Positions 16,279 through 41,459 of a DNA stretch of 41,519 bases are shown here, piece by piece; position 1 is the stretch's first letter; the number at the start of each line of letters is the position of its first letter. This stretch comes from Lentisphaerota bacterium (lineage in GTDB: Bacteria; Verrucomicrobiota; Kiritimatiellia; RFP12; JAAYNR01). The DNA lies in assembly GCA_016873675.1 (NCBI GenBank), contig VGWG01000016.1, forward strand, positions 1 to 41,519. Direction: 5' to 3'. The notes beneath the pieces are model-generated. The model was not told the origin of the DNA and did no database searches. It saw only the letters and a program-made list of their open reading frames with translations. A program made the translations under genes and the position numbers.

Positions 16279-17658
16279 TTAAGCGGCCATGATATTCCAA
16301 AATGCCAGATACGGTTTGCCTTCAATCTGCCGCTTGACATACAAGGCCGCTTCACGGACATGGTAGTCGCCCCACATACTCGATTCGCCGCACGGCACCT
16401 TCCTGCCCGCCGGAATGTGATCCCATCCATTGGGCCGATGGTAGACAGAATGGAGGAGCAATCCCTGATGGTCGGGCGCGGTACTGAGATACGGCTCGTC
16501 GATCACGGTGGCCAGTATCTGGAGTCCAGCCTGTTCGTAGCGAGTGGCGGCCCCGGGATTCTTTGATTTCAAGTGGTGGCCCAGCCGCAGGAATCCCTGT
16601 GCGGCAATAGCCGCGGCGGAACTGTCCACAGGCTCAAAATCATTGAACGGGTCTGCAGGCCGATCCAGAACGTTCCCAAGCCGCGCCAGGCCAGGTGCGC
16701 CTGTATCCCAGTAGGGAATGCCATCTGCCGGGGTTTCGGCAATGTAGAAATCCGCAGTGGCGCGGGCCGTCTTCAGGAATAGATCTTCCACGGCGGCGCG
16801 CCCCCCGAAGGGAAGAAACTCCGCATCGGGCAGGATCGCCAGGAATTCGAGCTGCTCGGCGAATCCCAGCAGAACCCAGGCGAGCCCGCGGGTCCAAGTG
16901 GTAAAGGGCGAGAAGCCCTGCTGGGAACTCGGACACCGATACGAGCCGTCGTTGAGGTTGAAGAGGCTCTCGTGGGCCACGCGGCCCCGGACATCGTAGA
17001 CGTCACGCCCCTCGCCGAAATAGACGTTGTAGCGGGCGGTGGCAGTCGCATGCTGGATCAGGCGCGCCAGAAGGGAGATGCGCTCGTCGCGTTCGCCCAT
17101 CATGACGTGGCCCAGCAGGTGGCTGACGGCCAGCACGCGCAGGGAACGAATGGTGTCGGCAAAGAGCGAGTGGGGACCATTGAAGGAATAGACGTAGCCG
17201 CCCTCGGGGAGAACGGTCCAGCGCCGGGCCTGCACGGCGCCTGAGACTTTGAGCGCGAGCTCACAAAAGCGGCGTTCCCACCCCTGCTCAGGGATTCGTT
17301 CTTCATGGATCAGGCGCAGCAGCGTACCATAGGTGCTGATGTTATTGAAGCCGTGATCGTGCACCCCGAAGTGGGTGAGGTGCGGTGCCATGCGGGTGAC
17401 GGTGCGTTGCCGACCCATCTCCAAAAAGGCGGCATCGAGGGTGGCGTCAAACTGAAGCAACGCCGAGCCGAACTGGAATCCCTGAGTCCATTCCGTCCAC
17501 CCGCGGGCTGTATAACGCCCCTTGATCGTGAAGACCGGGGCGCCCTCGCAGTCACCATACGCTTCTTCCATCAGCCGTAGTTTCGCGGCCGACACCTCCC
17601 AGAACCGGTTGATCGAAGCGGTCAGGTCGGCGGGGATAAGGCGCTTGGATAGGTTCAT
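16279..17658 (-). CDS. Glycoside hydrolase family 88, unsaturated glucuronyl hydrolase-like
   Basis: The start is ATG at 17658, behind AGGAGA. The 459-residue protein fits the alpha6/alpha6-barrel GH88 family, which hydrates and splits unsaturated uronic acids left by polysaccharide lyases. Candidate catalytic acids are Asp101 (VHDHGFNN) and Asp168 (LFADTIRSL), matching the two Asp of Bacillus UGL. Other family marks are FTTWTRGLAWVLLGF, PVDSSAAAIAAQGFLRL and GESSMWGDYHVREAALYV. No signal peptide is visible, so it probably acts on imported oligosaccharides in the cytoplasm or a related compartment. GH105 is the nearest alternative family. No lyase is in the window to fix the substrate. Confidence 0.82.
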   Translation of the reverse strand: MNLSKRLIPADLTASINRFWEVSAAKLRLMEEAYGDCEGAPVFTIKGRYTARGWTEWTQGFQFGSALLQFDATLDAAFLEMGRQRTVTRMAPHLTHFGVHDHGFNNISTYGTLLRLIHEERIPEQGWERRFCELALKVSGAVQARRWTVLPEGGYVYSFNGPHSLFADTIRSLRVLAVSHLLGHVMMGERDERISLLARLIQHATATARYNVYFGEGRDVYDVRGRVAHESLFNLNDGSYRCPSSQQGFSPFTTWTRGLAWVLLGFAEQLEFLAILPDAEFLPFGGRAAVEDLFLKTARATADFYIAETPADGIPYWDTGAPGLARLGNVLDRPADPFNDFEPVDSSAAAIAAQGFLRLGHHLKSKNPGAATRYEQAGLQILATVIDEPYLSTAPDHQGLLLHSVYHRPNGWDHIPAGRKVPCGESSMWGDYHVREAALYVKRQIEGKPYLAFWNIMAA

Positions 17659-17709: not shown

Positions 17710-18141
17710 TCAGAACCAGCCTTGGTGGCCCTGCGCATAGAGCCTGTCGAAATCCTCGTCAGATTTCGTCAGGTAGATAATCCCCTCGATGAAACCGATC
17801 ATAGAGATGACCCCCGTCGCCAGACCACACGTGACCATTCCGCCAAGAACCGACACCAGCAGCATGATCACGCCCTCCTTAGAATACCCCAAGTAGAACT
17901 TGTGAATGCCGATCCAGCCTAGGAACAGGCCGAGCAGTCCCGCCGCAACCTTGCTTTTCGCGCCACACACCGCCGGGCGGGCGGCTAGCGTCGTCCCACA
18001 ACTCACGCACATCGTTTGATTCGATTGGGTTGCGATCCCGCAATTCTGGCAGAACTTGTTCTCGACCCAAGGCGGAACACCGCACCCCGGACATGCCACC
18101 GCCTGTGAGTGGACGTCCTTTCCGCAGTTTTTGCAATACAT
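17710..18141 (-). CDS. TM2-domain protein with N-terminal zinc ribbons
   Basis: The start is ATG at 18141 (MYCKNCGKDV), behind AAGGAGA; a longer reading to 18192 lacks such a site. The 143-residue protein has three or more CxxC/CxxxC zinc-ribbon pairs in residues 1-60 (YCKNCG, ACPGCG, FCQNCG, CVSCG). The TM2 domain follows, with its loop motif LGWIGIHKFYLGYSKEG between two membrane helices. It is a small inner-membrane protein; function in the family is not established. It faces the GH29 operon across a 192-bp divergent spacer and ends 51 bp before the GH88 start. Confidence 0.85.
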   Translation of the reverse strand: MYCKNCGKDVHSQAVACPGCGVPPWVENKFCQNCGIATQSNQTMCVSCGTTLAARPAVCGAKSKVAAGLLGLFLGWIGIHKFYLGYSKEGVIMLLVSVLGGMVTCGLATGVISMIGFIEGIIYLTKSDEDFDRLYAQGHQGWF

Positions 18142-18178
18142 ATCCGAGTTTCTCCTTGCCTGCCGATTCGAGAGGATG

Positions 18179-18206
18179 ATATTACCACACACCTGAGTGG
18201 AGTAAA
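18179..18206 (-). promoter_or_regulatory. Possible promoter for the TM2 gene
   Basis: On the minus strand TTTACT (18206-18201) and TAATAT (18184-18179) are 16 bp apart, each matching four of six consensus bases. The position suits a leader of about 30 nt before ATG 18141. The match is weak, so this is a candidate only. Confidence 0.3.
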
Positions 18207-18251
18207 GCGGTTTCTACTGCTTGCCGTGACATTGCATCCCAAAGAAGCCGC

Positions 18252-18280
18252 TTGTTTTCCAACGGCAACTGTCATACACT
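18252..18280 (+). promoter_or_regulatory. Possible promoter for the GH29-GH38-PfkB operon
   Basis: TTGTTT (18252-18257) and TACACT (18275-18280) are 17 bp apart, about 54 bp before the GH29 start. Three and four of six bases match consensus. This is weak evidence and only the best pair I can see in the spacer. Confidence 0.27.
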
Positions 18281-18333
18281 TTCCACGCGCAGGGAAGAGC
18301 GTTATTCATTCGGCAACAGGAAGGAAGAACAGG

Positions 18334-19362
18334 ATGAAACGAGAGGTGTTGGTAGCGATCAACGGCTTGCTCGCGATGACAGCATTCGGCGGCGAGATAC
18401 AGGATGGGGTCATCCGCCCCTCAAACAAACCCAATGCCGTTCAGCAACAGATGATCGCCCGACAGTATGGAATGTTCATCCACTTTGGCATCAACACCTT
18501 TCACAACCAGGAGTGGACGGACGGAACCCAACCGCCCACGAGCTACAATCCCAAAACGGTGGACACAGATCAGTGGGCGCAGACGGCACGGGATGCCGGA
18601 ATGAAGTATGTCATCTTGACGGCCAAGCACCACGACGGTTTCTGCCTGTGGGACAGCCAGCACACAGACTATGATGTTGCGAACAGTCCGAACAAAACTG
18701 ATGTTGTGGCAGCTCTGGCCGCATCCTGCAAGAAGTACGGCATCCAGATGGGACTCTACTATTCACTGTGGGATCGACATGAACCCACCTACAAAGACGA
18801 CAAGAAATACGTCGCGTACATGCTGAAGCAACTGACGGAGTTGCTCACGGACTACGGCCCTGTCTGCGAACTGTGGCTGGACGGTGGTTGGGACAAGCGT
18901 CGAGAGAATTGGGATATTCCGGGTGTTTATGCGCTGGTGAAGAAACTCCAGCCGGAATGTGCCGTTGGAGTTAACTGGACGATCGGACTTCCCGATAATC
19001 CTGATGCCAAAAATGTGAAACCTGACCAGCAAAAGGAGGGATTTCCCATTCGCTACTTCCCAAGCGATTTCAGGCTGGGGGATCCGTATCTTCCGGGAGA
19101 CCCTGATCCAAAGCTTTTCTCCCACGATGGGCAACTCTTCTACCTGCCTTTCGAGGCCACGGTGTGTTTGAACGGCAAATGGTTCTTCAACACGCGAGAC
19201 AGCCAATTGAAAACTCTGGGTGAACTTGAATCGCTCTTTAAACGCGCCACCGCTCAGGACAACATACTGATCCTGAATTCTCCGCCTAATCGTGACGGAG
19301 TCATGACCGAAGGCAATGTGAAACAACTCAAGGCCTTGGCCGAGCGACTGGGACTCCATTGA
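18334..19362 (+). CDS. Alpha-L-fucosidase, glycoside hydrolase family 29
   Basis: The start is ATG 18334, with AAGGAAG at 18320-18326; the open frame upstream has no support. The 342-residue protein is a compact GH29 catalytic domain that releases alpha-L-fucose by a retaining mechanism. Family marks are YGMFIHFGINTF, KYVILTAKHHDGFCLW and ELWLDGGW, in which Asp183 is the likely nucleophile. A weakly hydrophobic N-terminus (VLVAINGLLAMTAFGG) might be a signal peptide, so export is possible but uncertain. No C-terminal beta domain or carbohydrate module is present. Its stop overlaps the TTG start of the next gene (TTGA), implying coupled translation of a fucosidase and a mannosidase-like protein. 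Confidence 0.9.
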   Translation: MKREVLVAINGLLAMTAFGGEIQDGVIRPSNKPNAVQQQMIARQYGMFIHFGINTFHNQEWTDGTQPPTSYNPKTVDTDQWAQTARDAGMKYVILTAKHHDGFCLWDSQHTDYDVANSPNKTDVVAALAASCKKYGIQMGLYYSLWDRHEPTYKDDKKYVAYMLKQLTELLTDYGPVCELWLDGGWDKRRENWDIPGVYALVKKLQPECAVGVNWTIGLPDNPDAKNVKPDQQKEGFPIRYFPSDFRLGDPYLPGDPDPKLFSHDGQLFYLPFEATVCLNGKWFFNTRDSQLKTLGELESLFKRATAQDNILILNSPPNRDGVMTEGNVKQLKALAERLGLH

Positions 19363-22142
19363 AAACAACACCCAAGCCTCACACGCTGCATGTGATCAAC
19401 GCCACGCATTGGGACCGCGAATGGCTGCTCTCGTTCGTGGGCTACCGGCGGCACTTGCTGCATCATAACGACCAGTTGATCGAGCTGATGGAAAGCAACC
19501 CGGCGTTCAAGCACTACCAGATGGACGGCCAATCCATTTGCGTGGAGGACTACCTGCGCCTGCGGCCTGAGATGACCACGCGGCTGCGCAAGCTGATCCG
19601 ATCCGGGCGTATTCTCGTCGGCCCGTGGTACACGCTGCCGGACATGCCGCTGCTGCATGGCGAGGCCGTCGCGCGTAACCTGCAGATCGGCCTGGGTGTC
19701 GCCGAGTCGCTGGGCGGTGCCATGCGCGAAGGCTACACCGCGTGCTCCAATGGCCAAATCGCCCAGTTGCCCCAGCTCTACAATGGGTTCGACATTCGTT
19801 CGGCGGTCATCTACAAGGGCATTTCGGACGCGCGCGCCCCGCGCGAATTTCGCTGGCAAAGCCCCGATGGGTCCGAGGTGCTGACCCTCCATTTGGGAGC
19901 GCGCTACGGGCGCACCAATTTCTACTGCCTGCTCTATCACGAGGTCATCGCCAATGTGATCCACGATACGCCGGATCAGAATTGGGAATATGCGATGACC
20001 GATAACTGGTATCCGTATCGCGTGGATGGGCTGGCGCAACACGACCCCTACAGCTATCCGTGCCTCAACAGCCGGGAGGGATGGCACGCCCACCACCTGC
20101 GCCCTTACCTGACCAAGTTGCGCGATACGACGGCGCTCGGTGCGGCGACCTCCCACCTGGCCGCTTTCAACTGCATGGATCACACCATGCCGTTCCCAGC
20201 CACACCGAAACTGATCGCCGCTGCAGACAAGGTCTTCGCCGACCTCCGGGTGAAGGACAGCTCGCTTCCTGAATATTTTGCCGCCGTCCGCCGCGAGGCC
20301 GGATCACGCTTGCCGGTCCACATCGGCGAACTGCGCGACGCCCGGGCAACCGAGCGGGACCGCGATGTCTGGTGGGCGACGCTGTCCGCCCGCATGGGCC
20401 TGAAAATCGCCAATCGCATCAGCGAGCATCTGCTGATCGACGTCGCCGAACCCATCAGCACGTGGGCCTGGCTGAAGGGCGCGGCGTATCCGGCCGCATC
20501 CCTCACCGAGGCCTGGAAACTCCTGATCGCCAGCCAGGCGCATGATTCCATCGACGGCTGCAGCCTGACCCGGGTGGCGGATGACATCCTGGCGCGCCTG
20601 GCCGACGTGCAGGCCATGAGCGAAGGGCTGCTGGACGATGCCTGCCGCAGCCTCATGCAACCGGCCCTTGTGCCGACGCGCGCCCGGAACAACCCGCCGG
20701 AACCGCATCTGGTGCTCTTCAATCTGGACGCCCGTCCGCGCGGCGGATTCTGCCAGATGGAGGTCGATATCCCCGGCGCGCAGCCGGTCGAATCCCTGCG
20801 CTTGGTGTCCGGGACCGGCCAGGACATTGTGCCTCACGTGCAGTTCCTGCATGCCTCGGGGTCTTCGGTCTTGGGACTGGTCGGACGCCCGATGACCACC
20901 CGCCGCTACCGGCTCCAGTTCGAAGCGCCGACCATCGCGCCGCTGAGTTGGCTCACGTTGAAGGCGGTTCCGGCGGCTGCGGCCAAGGCACCTCCCGCCC
21001 TCGTCCGAGGTGGCCGCGTGCTCGAGAATGATTGCCTCCGCGCGGTGATCCGTGACGACGGACGGTTGGATCTGACGCATCGGGCGACCGGGGCGACTTA
21101 TGCCGGACTGCACGCTTTCGAAGACGTGGGCGATGTGGGCGACCCGTGGCTCTTCAAGCCGGTGGGTCTGCCCGTCACCCCCACAGGCCCGGCCGAGATC
21201 AGCGTGGTAGAGAACACCCCGTGGCGCGCCACGATTGCGATCACCGTGCGTCTGGAGTTGCCTCTGGCCCGTCCCGCCACGGCACCGGAAGGCACGCCGG
21301 AGAAGGGTCAGGTGCTGCTCACTTCGCGGGTGTCGCTGACCCGTTCGGGCCAGCGGCTCGATATCGAGACGACGATCGACAACGGCTGCCGCGATCACCG
21401 CCTGAGGGTGTGTTTCCCCACCGGCATCACAACCGACACCACCTACGCAGGCGGCCAGTTCAACGTGGACGAACGGCCCACGAAACAGCCGGACATGTCC
21501 ACCTGGATCGAACCGGTGGACGGCTATCCGAACTTCGGCTTTGCCGGTCTGTCCGACGGGCGGCGGGGACTGGCGATTCTCAACCTCGGACTTCCCGAAT
21601 ACTTTGTCGCCGGCCCCGCTAGCGATGTCTTGACCCTGACGCTGATGCGCGCGATGCAGCTCCGGCGCTGGCCGGAGGGTACCGGCGAAGCGCAATGGGC
21701 CGGTGCCCAGCAACTGGGCCGGATGACGGTGCGTTACGCGATTTATCCGCATGCTGGCGGCTGGCAGGAAGGCAAATTGTGGCAGGCGTATCGCGACTTC
21801 TCGCGGCCGCTGGTCTGCTCAGAGATGATCGGCTCCGTGCGCTCCGGATCGACGAGTCTGCTGGCGCTGGACGCCGCAGACCTGGAGGTGGCTTGCCTGA
21901 AAAAGGCTGCGCGCGAGGACGGGTTGATCGTGCGACTCTGGAACCCGACGGGCGCGGCCCAAGCGGGCAAGCTGACGCTGGGTCTGCCGTTCGCTTCGGT
22001 GGTCACGACGAATCTGAATGAAGACGCGCAGGCCGATGCGACGGTCAAACTGCGCCTGAGCGGCCGGCGCACCGTGCGCTTGACAGTTGGCCCGAGAAAG
22101 CTTATTACGTTGCTGTTTCGGTTCCCACAGGGGAAACAGTGA
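19359..22142 (+). CDS. Glycoside hydrolase family 38 alpha-mannosidase-like protein with Cys at the nucleophile position
   Basis: The 927-residue protein starts at TTG 19359, overlapping the fucosidase stop; the next start codon would cut into the conserved start. GH38 marks are ATHWDREW (zinc ligands His17 and Asp19), RSGRILVGPWYTLPD and SQAHDSIDGC (His395). The nucleophile region reads EGYTACSNGQIAQLPQLYNGF, where family members read GYLPDSFGQ: Cys129 stands in place of the Asp that is both nucleophile and zinc ligand. The C-terminal beta domains look complete and the frame is undamaged. It may be a changed-mechanism enzyme, or an inactive binding protein; the fold assignment itself is firm. 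No signal peptide is seen. A PfkB kinase gene follows by 20 bp. Confidence 0.85.
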   Translation: MKTTPKPHTLHVINATHWDREWLLSFVGYRRHLLHHNDQLIELMESNPAFKHYQMDGQSICVEDYLRLRPEMTTRLRKLIRSGRILVGPWYTLPDMPLLHGEAVARNLQIGLGVAESLGGAMREGYTACSNGQIAQLPQLYNGFDIRSAVIYKGISDARAPREFRWQSPDGSEVLTLHLGARYGRTNFYCLLYHEVIANVIHDTPDQNWEYAMTDNWYPYRVDGLAQHDPYSYPCLNSREGWHAHHLRPYLTKLRDTTALGAATSHLAAFNCMDHTMPFPATPKLIAAADKVFADLRVKDSSLPEYFAAVRREAGSRLPVHIGELRDARATERDRDVWWATLSARMGLKIANRISEHLLIDVAEPISTWAWLKGAAYPAASLTEAWKLLIASQAHDSIDGCSLTRVADDILARLADVQAMSEGLLDDACRSLMQPALVPTRARNNPPEPHLVLFNLDARPRGGFCQMEVDIPGAQPVESLRLVSGTGQDIVPHVQFLHASGSSVLGLVGRPMTTRRYRLQFEAPTIAPLSWLTLKAVPAAAAKAPPALVRGGRVLENDCLRAVIRDDGRLDLTHRATGATYAGLHAFEDVGDVGDPWLFKPVGLPVTPTGPAEISVVENTPWRATIAITVRLELPLARPATAPEGTPEKGQVLLTSRVSLTRSGQRLDIETTIDNGCRDHRLRVCFPTGITTDTTYAGGQFNVDERPTKQPDMSTWIEPVDGYPNFGFAGLSDGRRGLAILNLGLPEYFVAGPASDVLTLTLMRAMQLRRWPEGTGEAQWAGAQQLGRMTVRYAIYPHAGGWQEGKLWQAYRDFSRPLVCSEMIGSVRSGSTSLLALDAADLEVACLKKAAREDGLIVRLWNPTGAAQAGKLTLGLPFASVVTTNLNEDAQADATVKLRLSGRRTVRLTVGPRKLITLLFRFPQGKQ

Positions 22143-22162: not shown

Positions 22163-23359
22163 ATGACACGCAAGTATGATGTAATGGCGGCTGGACATCT
22201 GTGTTTTGACGTGATTCCGAGTTTTCCTGACACCGGCGCGCGCCTCATCGGCGACCTTCTGCGACCGGGCAAACTGGTGCATGTGGACGATGCGATGATG
22301 AGCACCGGCGGGCCGGTCTCCAACACCGGCATCGGCCTGAAGATCTTGGGTAGCCAGGTTGTCTTCACGGCCCGCGTCGGTGCGGACGATTTCGGACGCA
22401 TGACCATGGAGCGCCTCCGCAAGAGCGGCAATGCCGATGGCATCCGCGTCATGAAAGGCTCGACCAGTTCCTACACCGTCGCCCTGGCGCCTCCGGGCAT
22501 TGATCGCATTTTCCTTCACAATCCCGGAACGAATAACGTTTTTGGCGCCGAAGACCTGAAGCCGAAACTGATCGCGCAATGCCGTCACTTCCATTTCGGC
22601 TATCCTCCGCTCATGCGCCGCATGTACACCGACGAGGGCCGCGAATTGGAGAAAATCTTCAAGATCGCCAAGGATGCAGGCGCCACCACGTCGTGCGACA
22701 TGGCGCTGCCTGATCCCGCATCCCCTGCAGGGAAGGCGCCGTGGAAAAAGATATTGGCTCGCATTTTGCCTTATGTCGACATCTTCCTGCCGTCGGTGGA
22801 GGAGGTCCTCTTCATGCTCGAACGTGACACGTTCCTGAAGCTGAAGGCGAAACATCACGGGTCGGACTTGCTGGACGTTCTGCATGCCGAGGATTACTCG
22901 CGGTTGTCGGGCAAGCTGCTGGCCCTGGGTTCTACGATGACGTCGCTCAAGTCCGGCCGCCGCGGCTTTTATTTCCGGTCCAAGTCGAAAGACGCATTCA
23001 GCGGCCTGGGCGCGGCCCGGCCCGGGAATCCGGACAACTGGTCCGGCCGCGAGTTATGGTGTCCGGCCTTTCTGTGCAAGAAGGTCGCCAGCGCGACCGG
23101 TTCGGGGGATTCATCCATCGCCGGCTTTCTGCACGCCTATCTCAAGGGCCTCGACGTGGAGGCCTGCCTCAAGGCCGCCAATGCCCTCGGATGGCAGAAC
23201 ATCCAGGTGCTCGACGCCGTCAGCGGCATCAAGAACTGGAAAGACACCCAAGCCTTCCTGCGGCGCAATCCGCCGCTGGAGGATTTGGTGCTGAATCAGG
23301 CGCCGGGCTGGACCTGGGACAAGACCTTCAGAATGTGGCACGGGCCGAATGACGCCTAA
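22163..23359 (+). CDS. PfkB-family carbohydrate kinase
   Basis: The start is ATG 22163 with AAGGA upstream; the protein has 398 residues, longer than the usual 310-340. Ribokinase-fold marks are AAGHLCFDVIPSF, the double-Gly hinge STGGPVSNTGIGLKILG, ARVGADDFGRM and SATGSGDSSIAGFL, in which Asp316 is the catalytic base. The extra length lies around residues 220-300, between the core strands and the ATP-site half, and has no clear match. It should phosphorylate a sugar or sugar-like alcohol in the cytoplasm. As the third gene of a fucosidase-mannosidase operon its substrate is probably a released monosaccharide, but the residues do not tell which one. Confidence 0.87.
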   Translation: MTRKYDVMAAGHLCFDVIPSFPDTGARLIGDLLRPGKLVHVDDAMMSTGGPVSNTGIGLKILGSQVVFTARVGADDFGRMTMERLRKSGNADGIRVMKGSTSSYTVALAPPGIDRIFLHNPGTNNVFGAEDLKPKLIAQCRHFHFGYPPLMRRMYTDEGRELEKIFKIAKDAGATTSCDMALPDPASPAGKAPWKKILARILPYVDIFLPSVEEVLFMLERDTFLKLKAKHHGSDLLDVLHAEDYSRLSGKLLALGSTMTSLKSGRRGFYFRSKSKDAFSGLGAARPGNPDNWSGRELWCPAFLCKKVASATGSGDSSIAGFLHAYLKGLDVEACLKAANALGWQNIQVLDAVSGIKNWKDTQAFLRRNPPLEDLVLNQAPGWTWDKTFRMWHGPNDA

Positions 23360-35553: not shown

Positions 35554-38196
35554 TCACGTGCTCGGCGAACGCATGTCTGGGCCACACGCGCCAGAGGGTT
35601 CCCGTTCCAGAAGGTCCGTCAGGGTCAGTGTTCGGGTGTGGCGGTCTAGGCGAACGGTCTGCAGACACCGCGCGCCAATCGATGTTTTGTAGGCCTGTCC
35701 GTCCACGGTCAGCGTGAAATCGGTATCCACTCCGGCCACTTCCCAAAAGCGCAAAATCAGGGCATCGCCCGCTTCCGCTTTCTTCATGGCGCCCAGGATG
35801 ACGTTATCGCGATCGGTCACGGCAAACGGCACGGAACATACAGGTCGATCAGCGCGCCGGGTGGGGTAATAGACCAGTTGCTCAAGCCCCACATTCGCTT
35901 CGTAGGCCAGGCGCGCCAGGCGCTCGTCGGTGGAGGCTGCTTCGCCGAACACGAAAGTAAAGCGCGCCTGGCGTTCCCCCTGTTCGTGGTGCGGGATGAA
36001 CCGGTGACGGTAGCGTTGCCAGGTGTCGGTCACCGTCATGCACGCGTAGGCCGGACTGCGCAAGACGCTGAGCCAGGTGGCGCCGTCCTGCTGATGGTAG
36101 CCGTGCGTTCCGTGGCTGATCATCCCGATGCTGTGCCGGTTATCGGCGTCGGTCAGGCGCAGAAAGCGCTGATAGGTGCGCTCCCGGTCCGGACGGTCGA
36201 CTGCGTCGGCCTCATCATCGATGCTGTAACATTTCTCCGCGCGGATGCGAGGCAATGGGTCGGCTGGAACCAATCCGAGCTTCAGCATCTTGTCACGCTC
36301 TGCCCAGAAGATGTCTAATTCCACCTCCAGGACCGCGCGCTGCTTGTTGATCTTGTAGCGTTGCGTCAACGCCGTGCGTCCGGAGACAAAGAGCGCTTCC
36401 ACCACCCTGCGGATCGGGCCGTCCTCCAGGATGCGCACCGGCGGGATCAGCTCCGCGTAGTCTGGATTGATCGATTCCGAGGTCAGGAGTCGCGCGGTCT
36501 CTGCGGGAGTGGCCAGGCGGAAGTTTTCCTTTGACTGAGCCCACTCTTTGGCTGCGCTCCAGCCCCAACAGCTCGGCACATCGTCGAAAATGCGAGGCGT
36601 AAACGCGCCCGGTTGCACCTGTTCCCGACCCTCGGCCATGAGGCTGTCGATCAACCCGGTGCTCAGGTTGATCGTCACTTGCATCGCCGCGCCGTCGATC
36701 GTGAGCAAGTCGCCGGCAGGGAGCGCAGGCGACTGCCAGCGAACGACCTGGTCTGGCGGTAGCACCCGATAGTCGGCATCGAACCGCTTATAGGACAACG
36801 GCGGGATGGTGGCGCGGAAGACAGCCTTTTGCCGCCACTCGCTCCAGTGCGGATTGTCAAGGTTCAGATCGCCCTTTTCAAACTGGGCCTCCACCGGTTT
36901 GCCGTCACAGGTGAGGGTGCGCACGATGGCGTCCGCGCCAGCCTGGCGGGCCGTGCCGTACTCCATCTCCACCTCGCGGGTGACCTCCCAGTTGTGCGGG
37001 TTAAAGATGAAAAACGGCGTGATCTCACGATCGGTCAGGGGTTCATCGCGCAGCAAGGCAATCATGCCCTCGACCTTTTTGCGGCGCAGGATCTCCTCGG
37101 CATGCCCCAAAAGCTTCAGGCTGTCGGCTTCCACCTGCTGCGTGCACGAGCCGGGCAGGATGTCGTGGAACTCGGCAAACAAAATGTCCTTCCAGGCCAC
37201 CTCCAAGTCTTTGGTCGGATAATCCCTTCGCCCCTGCCACCACGCGAGCGCGCAGATCTTTTCGGTGAGATGAGCCAGGTTTTCCAAGCGGCGGTGCTGC
37301 TGCTTGACGCGCTGCATCGAGCTGTAGCACCCCTCCATGACCCTGTTGAAATCACCGGTCACCACGGGGAGGTTCTCGCGACCGCGCACCGTGAGTGTGT
37401 GCGCAAAGAATGCCTCCGGGGTGGACTCGATGAACGCGACGTTCGGGAAATCGGCGCGCATGCCCGGAATCTGCGCATATTCAGCCCGGGAGGGGCCGCC
37501 GCCGTGATTACCCACCCCCCAGAGATACATGAAGTCGCCTTCCGCCTCGCGGTAGTGGGCCGGCCAACTGCCGGTTCGCGCCTCATCCTTCGGCACGTCG
37601 CCCTCTCCGTCGATCGCTGTCCCCATCATCCATCGCCGAAGATTTCCCTGGGTCAGGTAATGATCGTCGCTGCGGCGGGCGATGATTTCGGCTCCGGATG
37701 CGTGCCGCCAGCGGAAGCTACCGATGGGCAACGGTCGTTGGCCCGCCGTGGGACGGCAAAAGACATAGGCGTCACAGCCGCAACCGGCCAGGATCTGGAT
37801 CATGCCTTGCGGATGCCCGAAGGAATCGAAGTTGTAGGCCACCCGCGGCTCCACGTCGAACTTATCGGCAAAGTAGCGCTTCCCGATCAGAAACTGCCGG
37901 ATCATGGACTCGCCGGAGGCCGCTATCATGTCCGGTTGCACGTAAGCGCCGCCTGCGATATGCCAACGCCCCTCCTTCACCTGCTGCTGTATACGCGCAA
38001 ACAGGGCGGGATCATTGCGTTCCACCCACTCGTACAACAACGCCTCGTTGTGGTTGAAAACGAATTCGGGGTATTCGTCGATGAAATCCGCGGCCACGCG
38101 AAACGTGGAAATGGCCTCGGCCAACCCCTCTTCCCAGGGCCACAACCAGACCGGGTCAAGATGCGCGTTGCAGACGAGAAAACATTTCTGTTTCAT
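35554..38196 (-). CDS. Alpha-mannosidase, glycoside hydrolase family 38
   Basis: The start is ATG at 38196, with AAGGAGAGG upstream. The 880-residue protein has the complete GH38 active site: NAHLDPVWLW (zinc ligands His12, Asp14), YNFDSFGHPQGM (Asp124, nucleophile and zinc ligand) and FAEFHDILPGSC (His344). C-terminal beta domains follow, as in MngB-like enzymes. No signal peptide is visible, so it probably trims mannosides in the cytoplasm. It lies downstream of the FAD-protein genes on the same strand, so all may share a transcript. It is distantly related to the plus-strand GH38 at 19359 and not a recent copy: start, spacing and motif wording differ throughout. Confidence 0.92.
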   Translation of the reverse strand: MKQKCFLVCNAHLDPVWLWPWEEGLAEAISTFRVAADFIDEYPEFVFNHNEALLYEWVERNDPALFARIQQQVKEGRWHIAGGAYVQPDMIAASGESMIRQFLIGKRYFADKFDVEPRVAYNFDSFGHPQGMIQILAGCGCDAYVFCRPTAGQRPLPIGSFRWRHASGAEIIARRSDDHYLTQGNLRRWMMGTAIDGEGDVPKDEARTGSWPAHYREAEGDFMYLWGVGNHGGGPSRAEYAQIPGMRADFPNVAFIESTPEAFFAHTLTVRGRENLPVVTGDFNRVMEGCYSSMQRVKQQHRRLENLAHLTEKICALAWWQGRRDYPTKDLEVAWKDILFAEFHDILPGSCTQQVEADSLKLLGHAEEILRRKKVEGMIALLRDEPLTDREITPFFIFNPHNWEVTREVEMEYGTARQAGADAIVRTLTCDGKPVEAQFEKGDLNLDNPHWSEWRQKAVFRATIPPLSYKRFDADYRVLPPDQVVRWQSPALPAGDLLTIDGAAMQVTINLSTGLIDSLMAEGREQVQPGAFTPRIFDDVPSCWGWSAAKEWAQSKENFRLATPAETARLLTSESINPDYAELIPPVRILEDGPIRRVVEALFVSGRTALTQRYKINKQRAVLEVELDIFWAERDKMLKLGLVPADPLPRIRAEKCYSIDDEADAVDRPDRERTYQRFLRLTDADNRHSIGMISHGTHGYHQQDGATWLSVLRSPAYACMTVTDTWQRYRHRFIPHHEQGERQARFTFVFGEAASTDERLARLAYEANVGLEQLVYYPTRRADRPVCSVPFAVTDRDNVILGAMKKAEAGDALILRFWEVAGVDTDFTLTVDGQAYKTSIGARCLQTVRLDRHTRTLTLTDLLEREPSGACGPDMRSPST

Positions 38197-38417: not shown

Positions 38418-41369
38418 TCAGATTTTCAGCACCATCGCGGCATATCGCCGGGCCTGGCTGTGGGGTGACTGCACGTACTTCTCCGCGATGTGCCGCTGTG
38501 GATGCCCGAGACGCCCCAGAATTTCCGCCGCCGCCAGTTCGAGTTGCCAGAACACATCTTCACACTGGGGCCAGCGCCCGTTCAGTGAATAGATCTGAAG
38601 CTTGCGTTCACAGGCAATGTCGTCCCGCTTGAGCAGTTCCAGGATCGGCGACACGGCGCGCTGATCGCCGATCCGACCCAGCGCGCGCAGCGTCGCAATC
38701 AGGGCGTCAAATGCCACTGTGCGGTCCGCCAGGACGTCGAGCAGCGCCGGCACGGCGGTAGCGGACCCGATGCGGCCGAGTAATACGATGCACGATTGCC
38801 ACAACGGCACCATGTTGCGGCTGCGCGGTGTGTAGTCCGGGCGTTTCGACAAGCGTTCGTCCACCGCCTTGACCAGTTCGGGAAGCGCAGCCTCATCGCG
38901 CTGCCAGGCCAATGCCACCGAGGCCCAGAACCGGGCGCCGTGCTCTCCTGTTTTCAATGCCTCTTTCAACAGGCGTTGCGCCGGCTCGCCGCCGTGGGCT
39001 AGAAGCCAGACGGCATCCTTGGGATCATCGGACGCCAGCCGCTCACAGCATTGGTCCAAGGGCATTGCCGGTACTACCGGTTTGGGTTTCAGCGATTCGC
39101 TCAACGCGCCGCTCTTCCGGAGTTCGGCCTGAACCAACCGCACATCCACCTGCCGCGGGGTAATCCCCCGTTTGACACACTGCGCGGCCGCGTAGGCAGC
39201 GACCTCCGCCAGGCGATGCTGGTTGCGCATGGTGCGGAACTGGTAGTTATGTTCGTGTGTGCAGGACGCGCCGCGACAGGCCACGAGCACACCGTCAACG
39301 TCTTTGGGCAACATCATGCGATAGGGTAACTGCCCGCCCATGCGCCGCTCGCGATTACCCAGCAGCCATACCCACAGCATCGGGCCGTCCTGATGGTTCT
39401 CGAAATCCTGCGAGTGGCAATCGAACTTGGCTGCGGAATAGCCCACACAGTCATCGAATTCTACCGGCAGAATGCCCTCCAGGAAATCAGGGACATAGTC
39501 ACCCACAATCTGCGGCCCGCCGCGGAGGCCGAGCAACGGACAGAGATACAGAAGCGGGCGGAACCCGAACGGATCCGGAGCAAAACGATCCCACACCTGC
39601 CGGATCCCCTCGCGCCGGGCGCGTGTGAGGTCCACAATATCCCACGGGTCAACAAAGCCGGAGTCCCAGTTCGTAATATTAACCACGCCGCGTGTCGTGA
39701 ACAAAGCACAGACCTGGCTGTAGCAGTGAAGAACGCCATCGTAGTCCCGCCCAATAGTCAACGGCGCCCCAGCCATGCGGGCCACGTCGGCGTCGCCGGT
39801 GCAGTCGATCACCACCTTGGCCCGATAAAGCGTTTTGCCGGACGGTGTCGCCGCCACCACCCCGATGACCCGCCGACCGTTCATCTCCACGCCGATCGCG
39901 GTAGCGCCATACACCCGTTCGGTGCCGGCTTCCGCCGACAGACTTTCCAGCACAACTCTGCCTGCGCCGGCTGGATAGGCCAGAAAAGGACAGCCACTGG
40001 TGGGCGCCGCCGTGGTCTGTTCGAGGTCAGCGTACGTCGCGCCGCCTGCGCCGATTTCATCCGGAGGACGGTGGATTTTGTCGGCTGAATAGGCGGCCTC
40101 ATAGAGCGGAAGCACCTCCTTGATTCGCGCATGAAACTCATCCTGGAATCCGCCGTGAACACCATGTCCGCCCCAGTTCATCCCGGAACCGGTTGCGATG
40201 CCCCCCTGAAAGGTCGTGGCCTCCAACAGGATCGTGCGAACGCCCTGGCGACCGGAAACAATACCGCCCAGCGATCCGCCCGTGCCGCCGCCGACGATCA
40301 AGACATCACACTCACGCACCGGCAGTTCCGCCACGTCGCGCCGTCGCTTCGACGGCCCGGTTTTCGATTGCGCGGGCGGGGTGGCCGTCAGAATCGCTTG
40401 CGCCGTGGCTTCTCCAATTTCAATACGCTTTGCCGGCTGTGTCGCGCGCACGCGCTCCTCTGCATCGGCAATTGCCCAGATTCCGGCTCCGTAGAGATTC
40501 TGGAAGGTCGCGTGACGCGAACCGGGTTCGACCGGGAGTTGCGCCGCGCCGATGGGCAACGGTTCCAGTCCTTCGTGCGTTGCCGGCCCATCGGCTAACT
40601 GCGAAACGGTCTTGCGCACAAAGGCCACGGCATCCGGGTAAAGCAGTCTTGCCCTGCTGATGGATCCGTCAGGCACCGTGTATTCGACGCGTACCTCGCC
40701 CTTGCGAACGGAGCCGTACAACCTGACATCACGCACATGCGCCGAAGCGTCGCCCAGCGCCGACGGAAGGTCCATGCCCGGCTCAGCGCGGTTGAAGAAG
40801 AACGACTGGCACACGTGCGGCGTGTCGCCCGTCCCCCACGCCATATCGGTCAGATGCCAGACCAGCGCCTCCTCAGTGGCATCCACATAGACGTCCGCCT
40901 GGACAACCTGCTCGCCGGCCTTGTTGCCGATCACAACGCCGGTGACCCGGCCACTCTCGGCAATGAGGTCGGTCGGGGTCGAGTAGAGCAGGACATCGAT
41001 GCCATACGACTCGGCCAGATTATCCAAGGCCACCTCGGCAACGACTGCATCCACGGCATCGCCCTGCAGTCCATATACCGCGCTGATTGCACGACGAATC
41101 CTATGCACCGCCGCAGAAGCCGACGCATCCAGATTGCACGTGTAGGCGGCTGTGATCTCCCACCCCAGAAGCGGGCGGCGTTCACAGATAATCACCTTCT
41201 TCCCGTTTCGAGCGAGTGTGAGCGCGGCGCCGATGCCGCAGAGCCCACCGCCCATGATGGCGACGTCGTAGCGACGCTCAAACGGACGGAAGGACTTTCC
41301 TGACGACTTGCCCGCTGAATGATCGAAATTGCATCCGGGCACGCTATCTTCGCAGAGGGAACGAGTCAT
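38418..41369 (-). CDS. Tandem FAD-dependent oxidoreductase with C-terminal HEAT-like repeats
   Basis: ATG 41369 (MTRSLCEDS) follows AGGAGG at ideal spacing, giving 983 residues; the frame stays open to 41441 without such a site. Two FAD_oxidored-type modules run in series. The first Rossmann loop is IMGGGLCGIG (about 40-45), ending near 340. The second is VLIVGGGTGGSLGG (about 360-365) and keeps VVIDCTGDADVARMAG and the SCTHEHNYQFRTMRNQHRLA segment (about 700). The last 220 residues (from about 765) are helical repeats of HEAT type (VPALLDVLADRT, ATLRALGRIGDQRAVSPI). No signal peptide is clear. The redox substrate is unknown; family members often sit with sugar-degradation genes. The first module looks more worn than the second, so the second is the likelier catalyst. 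Confidence 0.85.
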   Translation of the reverse strand: MTRSLCEDSVPGCNFDHSAGKSSGKSFRPFERRYDVAIMGGGLCGIGAALTLARNGKKVIICERRPLLGWEITAAYTCNLDASASAAVHRIRRAISAVYGLQGDAVDAVVAEVALDNLAESYGIDVLLYSTPTDLIAESGRVTGVVIGNKAGEQVVQADVYVDATEEALVWHLTDMAWGTGDTPHVCQSFFFNRAEPGMDLPSALGDASAHVRDVRLYGSVRKGEVRVEYTVPDGSISRARLLYPDAVAFVRKTVSQLADGPATHEGLEPLPIGAAQLPVEPGSRHATFQNLYGAGIWAIADAEERVRATQPAKRIEIGEATAQAILTATPPAQSKTGPSKRRRDVAELPVRECDVLIVGGGTGGSLGGIVSGRQGVRTILLEATTFQGGIATGSGMNWGGHGVHGGFQDEFHARIKEVLPLYEAAYSADKIHRPPDEIGAGGATYADLEQTTAAPTSGCPFLAYPAGAGRVVLESLSAEAGTERVYGATAIGVEMNGRRVIGVVAATPSGKTLYRAKVVIDCTGDADVARMAGAPLTIGRDYDGVLHCYSQVCALFTTRGVVNITNWDSGFVDPWDIVDLTRARREGIRQVWDRFAPDPFGFRPLLYLCPLLGLRGGPQIVGDYVPDFLEGILPVEFDDCVGYSAAKFDCHSQDFENHQDGPMLWVWLLGNRERRMGGQLPYRMMLPKDVDGVLVACRGASCTHEHNYQFRTMRNQHRLAEVAAYAAAQCVKRGITPRQVDVRLVQAELRKSGALSESLKPKPVVPAMPLDQCCERLASDDPKDAVWLLAHGGEPAQRLLKEALKTGEHGARFWASVALAWQRDEAALPELVKAVDERLSKRPDYTPRSRNMVPLWQSCIVLLGRIGSATAVPALLDVLADRTVAFDALIATLRALGRIGDQRAVSPILELLKRDDIACERKLQIYSLNGRWPQCEDVFWQLELAAAEILGRLGHPQRHIAEKYVQSPHSQARRYAAMVLKI

Positions 41370-41459
41370 GGTGGACCTCCTAAGAAAGAGACCGCGCGCG
41401 CGACCGGCCAGTGCAACACTTAGGGTTTTGAAAACGGCCACGCGGTGAAGTACACTTCC

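Follow-up and report, generated by a model that had tools for sequence, protein, structure and literature searches.

The locus described here raises the question of what becomes of catalysis in a GH38 protein that carries Cys in place of the catalytic, zinc-binding Asp. The window, that is, the whole analyzed stretch of 41,519 nucleotides (contig VGWG01000016.1 of a Lentisphaerota bacterium), encodes such a protein in an ORF that starts with TTG and runs for 927 codons with zero internal stops (Table 1). ORFs were called in GC-rich DNA with no gene finder; the TTG start is supported by the orthologue in genome G460, which has ATG at the equivalent position. The product is a full-length member of the GH38 family: PF01074 (Glyco_hydro_38N, E=5e-24), PF09261 (Alpha-mann_mid), PF07748 (Glyco_hydro_38C) and PF17677 (38C2) all score above the curated Pfam cut-offs, and the AF2 model (mean pLDDT 91.0, pTM 0.93) has the GH38 fold, with 2wyi/2wyh as the best PDB matches in a Foldseek search (TM 0.82-0.85). 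Against the mannosylglycerate hydrolase equivalog NF007331, the protein scores 360.5 bits, below the cut-off of 1138 bits.

The gene belongs to a tight GH29-GH38-PfkB operon, in which the stop codon of the GH29 gene overlaps the GH38 start (TTGA), in agreement with the earlier note on this DNA, which had placed the gene with a fucosidase and a PfkB kinase. Neither a GH94 gene nor a mutase gene was found in this operon. The presence of the fucosidase suggests a fucosylated glycan as the substrate, the trimmed core of which would be imported. Upstream of the operon, on the opposite strand, lies a gene whose 459 aa product matches GH88 only weakly (16279-17658, minus strand). The second GH38 gene of the window is canonical and is adjoined by a gene (38418-41441, minus strand) for a 1007 aa protein with FAD_oxidored and HEAT-repeat domains; FAD_oxidored genes are also found upstream of Asp-less GH38 genes in loci L097, L103, L116 and L130.

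Table 1. Coordinates in the window of the GH38 gene, its active-site residues and the adjacent or related genes
Feature	Position	Strand	Evidence
GH29 alpha-L-fucosidase ORF, the actual start of which is probably internal	18109..19362	+	PF01120, E=2e-49
Asp-less GH38 protein, 927 aa, without signal peptide	19359..22142	+	Pfam, AF2
H17-W18-D19, two metal ligands (SpGH38 H13, D15)	19407..19415	+	Invariant: 107/107 Asp-less, 32/32 canonical; PMC2815779
Cys129 codon TGC at the position of SpGH38 Asp125 (nucleophile and zinc ligand)	19743..19745	+	Sequence, alignment, PMC2815779
Lys153, equivalent of SpGH38 Arg149	19815..19817	+	Basic across the Asp-less branch (R73 K27 H7)
Asp-less-specific insertion region, approximate limits	19902..20063	+	D170-D274 spacing, median 99 aa vs 58.5 in canonical
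Arg185, two residues past the position aligned with SpGH38 Tyr192	19911..19913	+	Basic in 107/107 Asp-less, 0/32 canonical
Arg221, within the insertion	20019..20021	+	H, R or K in 105/107 Asp-less
Asp274, general acid/base (SpGH38 Asp232)	20178..20180	+	106/107 Asp-less
His395-Asp396, remaining metal ligand and substrate-binding Asp	20541..20546	+	H 106/107, D 107/107 Asp-less
PfkB-family kinase	22163..23359	+	PF00294; 20 bp downstream of GH38
Second GH38, canonical, outside the operon	35554..38196	-	Asp present (YNFDSFGH)

In the Streptococcus pyogenes enzyme (SpGH38; 2wyh), zinc is bound by His13, Asp15, Asp125 and His351; Asp125 is also the nucleophile and Asp232 the acid/base, and both Arg149 and Tyr192 contact Asp125, with Arg149 ionising the nucleophile (PMC2815779). 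The segment of the window protein around residue 129 reads YTACSNGQIAQLPQ, and Cys129 aligns with the D of ...GYFPDTFGNMGQTPQ in SpGH38 as well as with the Asp of the PDTFG motif in Enterococcus faecalis 3lvt/5kbp. The window protein retains the acid/base Asp274 and the equivalents of the other zinc ligands (His17, Asp19 and His395). Thus, the Asp to Cys change at residue 129 (TGC at 19743-19745, aligned with SpGH38 Asp125) and the intact frame with three kept ligands, both of which had been pointed out in the earlier note, are confirmed. The change is not host-wide, as had been argued from the second GH38 of the window: the latter (35554-38196, minus strand) and two further long GH38s of the same genome, three Asp-bearing long GH38s in all, keep the Asp.

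Searches of approximately 390 genomes of the phylum and of 346 genomes of the class yielded four orthologues in addition to the window protein (G460, G166, G322 and G268; 67-90% identity), all with the motif YTACSNGQ, so that Cys129 is common to five of the five. Given that the Cys is present in all these orthologues and that they evolve under purifying selection (dN/dS 0.12-0.23), a sequencing or assembly error or a one-strain mutation is ruled out, and the Cys is conserved in a clade. An alignment slip that would place a different Asp at the metal site can be rejected for the entire branch described below: the only newly invariant acidic residue is E163, which is present in 55% of the canonical members too.

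Beyond the Cys orthologues, we identified full-length relatives at 27-36% identity, every one of which lacks the Asp. When a profile of these Asp-less relatives was scanned against GTDB genomes, there was no Asp at the nucleophile position in any of the best 80 of 573 relatives. These 80 loci come from Lentisphaerota, Verrucomicrobiota, Sumerlaeota, Hydrogenedentota, Armatimonadota, Planctomycetota, Omnitrophota, Calditrichota, Ignavibacteriota, Marinimicrobia, Bacteroidota, KSB1, Bacillota, Spirochaetota and others, such that about 15 or more phylum-level groups are represented in the branch. A large, multi-phylum Asp-less branch of GH38 almost certainly exists. Apparently, it has not been described so far: the open literature that was searched, with subscription journals largely outside its scope, contains no description of an Asp-less GH38 or of a GH38 phosphorylase.

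For comparison, 107 Asp-less sequences, after removal of near-duplicates, were set against 32 canonical GH38s from the phylum of the window. At the position of residue 129, the Asp-less set has Phe in 77 sequences, Thr in 11, Ser in 10, Cys in 7 and Asn and Ala in one each, whereas the Asp is present in all 32 canonical homologues, in SpGH38 and in the three other long GH38s of the window genome. In a tree of 88 proteins built with the motif columns masked, a single change between Asp and not-Asp is required, compared with a mean of 28 after shuffling, and the branch support for this split is 79; on these grounds, a single origin of the Asp-less branch is favoured, although it is not proven. 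In the same tree, Cys arose twice, namely, in the Lentisphaerae-type group that includes the window protein and in Sumerlaeota; Thr is found in the sequences closest to the former group. The Sumerlaeota proteins (L060 and L064) have the Cys independently, at the equivalent position, in the motif YTPCSWGQ. Two other features of individual loci were observed: each of the short loci L057, L084 and L105 holds two Asp-less GH38 genes from different sub-branches, and in the Asp-less GH38 of L024, Ala replaces the acid/base as well (LLAGCAFSSP), so that this protein is possibly a true pseudoenzyme.

Apart from the position of the nucleophile, the active site of the Asp-less branch is nearly invariant: H17, D19 and D396 are present in 107 of the 107 sequences, and H395 and D274 in 106. 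No new branch-wide acidic residue capable of replacing the Asp was found among the 107 Asp-less sequences relative to the 32 canonical ones. What did change is the set of basic residues. Residue 185 is Arg or Lys in all Asp-less sequences and is not basic in any of the canonical ones; judging from the alignment, it would lie near the contact of the lost nucleophile, two positions past the equivalent of Tyr192. The stretch from D170 to D274 is longer by about 40 residues (median 99 vs 58.5), and position 221, which falls in the added segment, is taken by His, Arg or Lys in 105 of 107 sequences. Residue 153, the counterpart of SpGH38 Arg149, remains basic across the branch. R178 was considered as a third branch-specific basic residue and dropped because this position is basic in 14 of the 32 canonical sequences as well. 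Most members of the branch start 11-18 residues before HWD, which leaves no space for a signal peptide, so they are predicted to be cytosolic.

Taken together, these features lead us to propose, with a probability of about 0.4, that the Asp-less GH38s are glycoside phosphorylases that depend on zinc and act with inversion, with phosphate substituting for the lost nucleophile. Inverting phosphorylases need only one catalytic residue, the acid, and the accepted criterion for predicting them is the combination of an acid with phosphate-binding residues and the absence of the second carboxylate (PMC8950772). The Asp-less branch conforms to this single-acid pattern, with Asp in 0 of 107 sequences, no replacing acid and D274 kept, and residues 153, 185 and 221 are the putative phosphate binders. 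Under this scenario, zinc held by His-Asp-His would grip O2 and O3 of a mannose-like sugar, Asp274 would protonate the leaving oxygen, and inorganic phosphate would be bound by residues 153, 185 and 221 where the Asp used to be and would attack C1 directly. The product would be a sugar 1-phosphate (beta from an alpha-glycoside) that the neighbouring mutases and kinases could pass into metabolism. The Cys of the window's sub-branch would then be one residue among several that can be accommodated where the Asp was lost. With the same degree of tentativeness, an alpha-mannoside or ManNAc-like phosphorylase family could be inferred to have evolved inside GH38 and to be present in many bacterial phyla.

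The gene neighbourhoods were surveyed for 100 operon partners of 59 multi-phylum Asp-less loci, in which the commonest families are HAD (14), GH94 (8), phosphohexomutase (7), PfkB (5), URO-D (4) and NanE (3). A typical operon has the order NanE-PGM-HAD-GH38-GH94, and the GH94 of these operons is closest to chitobiose and cellobiose phosphorylases. The operons of L077:4347-14818 and L115:4463-14992, with genes for NanE, a phosphohexomutase, HAD, an Asp-less GH38 and GH94, look like a complete amino-sugar phosphorolysis pathway, and in such NanE operons alpha-ManNAc might, speculatively, be the natural substrate. Downstream of GH94, L077 has a GHL10 gene, and L115 has genes for an aminoglycoside N-acetyltransferase-like protein and an aldose epimerase. 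Both the GH94 genes and the mutase genes occur in two lineages only. GH94 is also located directly upstream of the GH38 gene in two Cys-branch genomes. An ORF opposite GH94 in L052 that had been taken as a gene was dropped after a genome search showed the GH94.

The HAD proteins directly beside Asp-less GH38 genes include a cluster of 17 proteins from 17 loci, for which the best models, below the cut-off, are of the beta-phosphoglucomutase and YqaB types. An inverting cut of an alpha-glycoside would yield a beta-sugar 1-phosphate, which is the kind of substrate used by HADs of the beta-phosphoglucomutase type. These proteins may be either beta-phosphoglucomutases or phosphatases, as structures of both kinds rank equally among the fold matches. 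Members of this family (L122:6937-7947, L068:6926-7936, L095:6817-7887, L131:4237-5223, L097:6592-7959 and 12 more) have an N-terminal extension of about 90 residues, those of the Ignavibacteria type also have a long internal insert, and a search of PDB sequences gave no match. No close homologue of the HAD was detected in the window's own genome. As a control, 17 canonical loci from the phylum of the window were surveyed, for which the listed families include neither HAD nor GH94 nor mutase, and one canonical GH38 is adjoined by a GH130 gene; the 20 Asp-less loci of this phylum have HAD in 4, PfkB in 3 and sulfatase in 6. The difference in HAD (4/20 vs 0/17) is not significant alone (p=0.11) and reaches p=0.02 with all Asp-less loci included.

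The window PfkB is 40-61% identical to PfkBs that adjoin Asp-less GH38 genes in Desulfobacterota, Planctomycetota, Omnitrophota, Spirochaetota and Kiritimatiellae-type genomes, and it has no match among the PfkBs that adjoin canonical GH38s. Among the 53 copies in the class, 8 adjoin an Asp-less GH38, against an expectation of about 0.2. Thus, this PfkB is linked to Asp-less GH38 operons, yet it is not exclusive to them. The AA_kinase beside GH38 in two Cys-branch genomes was considered as a sugar kinase and rejected, given that it scores as a carbamate kinase. This gene (L053:6973-7959 and L173:6323-7318) is flanked by a GH2 mannosidase-like gene on one side and the Cys-type GH38 on the other and is unusual as part of a sugar operon; the L173 locus also has GH94. 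In the same-phylum Asp-less loci L197-L215, genes for sulfatases, MFS transporters, GH95, RbsD/FucU and rhaM are found beside GH38, pointing to sulfated or fucose/rhamnose-containing glycans.

Several observations weigh against the phosphorylase reading: an anionic sugar would be an equally good ligand for the basic residues, and one lineage has sulfatase neighbours; L024 lost the acid/base as well; the window operon has no GH94 or mutase gene, and elsewhere these genes are limited to two lineages; a GH130 gene adjoins a canonical GH38 too; and the HAD fold is ambiguous, its excess over the same-phylum control is not significant alone, and PfkB is not exclusive. Among the alternatives, an inverting hydrolase, in which a water molecule on the His-Asp-His zinc is activated by Asp396, Asp19 or another group and attacks C1 in one step while the basic residues merely shape the subsite, is unlikely. 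The three metal ligands that are kept are a standard water-activating zinc set, and GH97 is a single family with both inverting and retaining members (PMC2670981); nevertheless, no new branch-wide acidic residue could act as the base, and the two universal new basic residues and the phosphorylase and mutase neighbours would be left unexplained.

Rather less probable appears to be an enzyme with substrate-assisted catalysis or an anionic substrate, for which GH99-type and GH20-type catalysis are precedents. Here, the nucleophile would be the 2-acetamido group of alpha-ManNAc, which is axial and thus trans to the leaving group, or else O2 (GH99-type, via a 1,2-anhydro sugar), and the basic residues would bind a sugar carboxylate or sulfate, in line with NanE (ManNAc-6-P epimerase) in the operons of one lineage and the sulfatases beside the Asp-less GH38 of another. 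However, no one anionic or N-acetyl substrate suits all the lineages, with their fucosidase, sulfatase, NanE and carbamate kinase contexts, yet residue 185 is universal; moreover, O2 is a zinc ligand in GH38, and an acetamido group would alter this contact.

A non-catalytic relative, that is, a sugar-binding or regulatory protein with the fold retained, is improbable. Loss of the nucleophile abolishes hydrolysis in known enzymes, and dGMII D204A is an inactive, substrate-trapping mutant (PDB titles; PMC2815779). Nevertheless, the whole 900-residue architecture is preserved, and across about 15 phyla there is little or no variation in the acid/base (106/107), for which a lectin would have no need, or in the three zinc ligands (106/107 or more for each); the binding protein suggested in the earlier note is accordingly disfavoured.

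Finally, Cys-specific chemistry of the GH127/GH146 kind, in which Cys129 would bind zinc, act as the nucleophile or do both, is quite improbable even for this sub-branch: the Cys is found in 5/5 Lentisphaerae-type orthologues and again in Sumerlaeota, but sister sequences with the other residues alike carry Thr, Phe predominates elsewhere in the branch, the several Cys of the GH127 zinc site are absent, and the conserved Cys of a zinc-thiolate enzyme of that type is reduced here to 7 of 107 sequences in two small sub-branches. As a mechanism shared by the whole branch, it is rejected. Because the position is mostly occupied by Phe (77/107), which cannot bind zinc, and because Cys arose separately twice, a key role of the Cys itself as a zinc ligand is not supported; of the earlier suggestion that the Cys binds zinc or marks a changed mechanism, the changed mechanism survives as the best reading and the Cys as key zinc ligand does not.

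If the phosphorylase reading is correct, GH38 would be a new phosphorylase fold, given that the family is absent from the list of phosphorylase families in a review (PMC8950772). It would also provide a second mechanism in a common, well-drugged fold, a new way for uncultured phyla to save energy when they use alpha-linked sugars, and a new means of synthesising sugar 1-phosphates and glycosides. If the Asp-less proteins are hydrolases instead, GH38 would work without a nucleophile, and the part played by zinc in catalysis in this family would have to be revised. Hundreds of bacterial proteins currently annotated as alpha-mannosidases may not be hydrolases.

Among known systems, the zinc-thiolate enzymes of GH127/GH146 are glycosidases with a Cys near the zinc site, from which the Asp-less GH38s differ in fold and ligand set and in that the Cys is not conserved across the branch. 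The GH65 phosphorylases offer a parallel in the way of working, as they convert an alpha-glycoside to a beta-sugar 1-phosphate and are paired with an HAD of the beta-phosphoglucomutase type, but their fold differs from that of GH38, and the HAD beside the Asp-less GH38s could be a phosphatase. A functional parallel can also be drawn with the mannoside phosphorylases of GH130, which have a single acid, no base or nucleophile and basic residues, and are cytosolic (PMC4599007, PMC8950772). In these intracellular phosphorylases, phosphate is held by three basic residues, whereas the GH130 hydrolases, which are secreted, have carboxylates in place of the basic residues (PMC4599007). Unlike the Asp-less GH38s, GH130 has an unrelated five-bladed propeller fold and acts on beta-mannosides, and in GH38 the role of phosphate is predicted. 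The retaining alpha-mannosidases of GH38 itself (SpGH38 2wyh, E. faecalis 3lvt/5kbp, dGMII and mannosylglycerate hydrolase) share with the Asp-less proteins the whole domain order, the fold (TM 0.82-0.85), the HWDRE motif, the His-Asp-His ligands and the acid/base Asp; in contrast to these enzymes, the Asp-less branch has no nucleophile Asp, is variable at the F127 position (Asn in the window protein), and has the basic residue 185 and an extra loop of about 40 residues with the basic residue 221.
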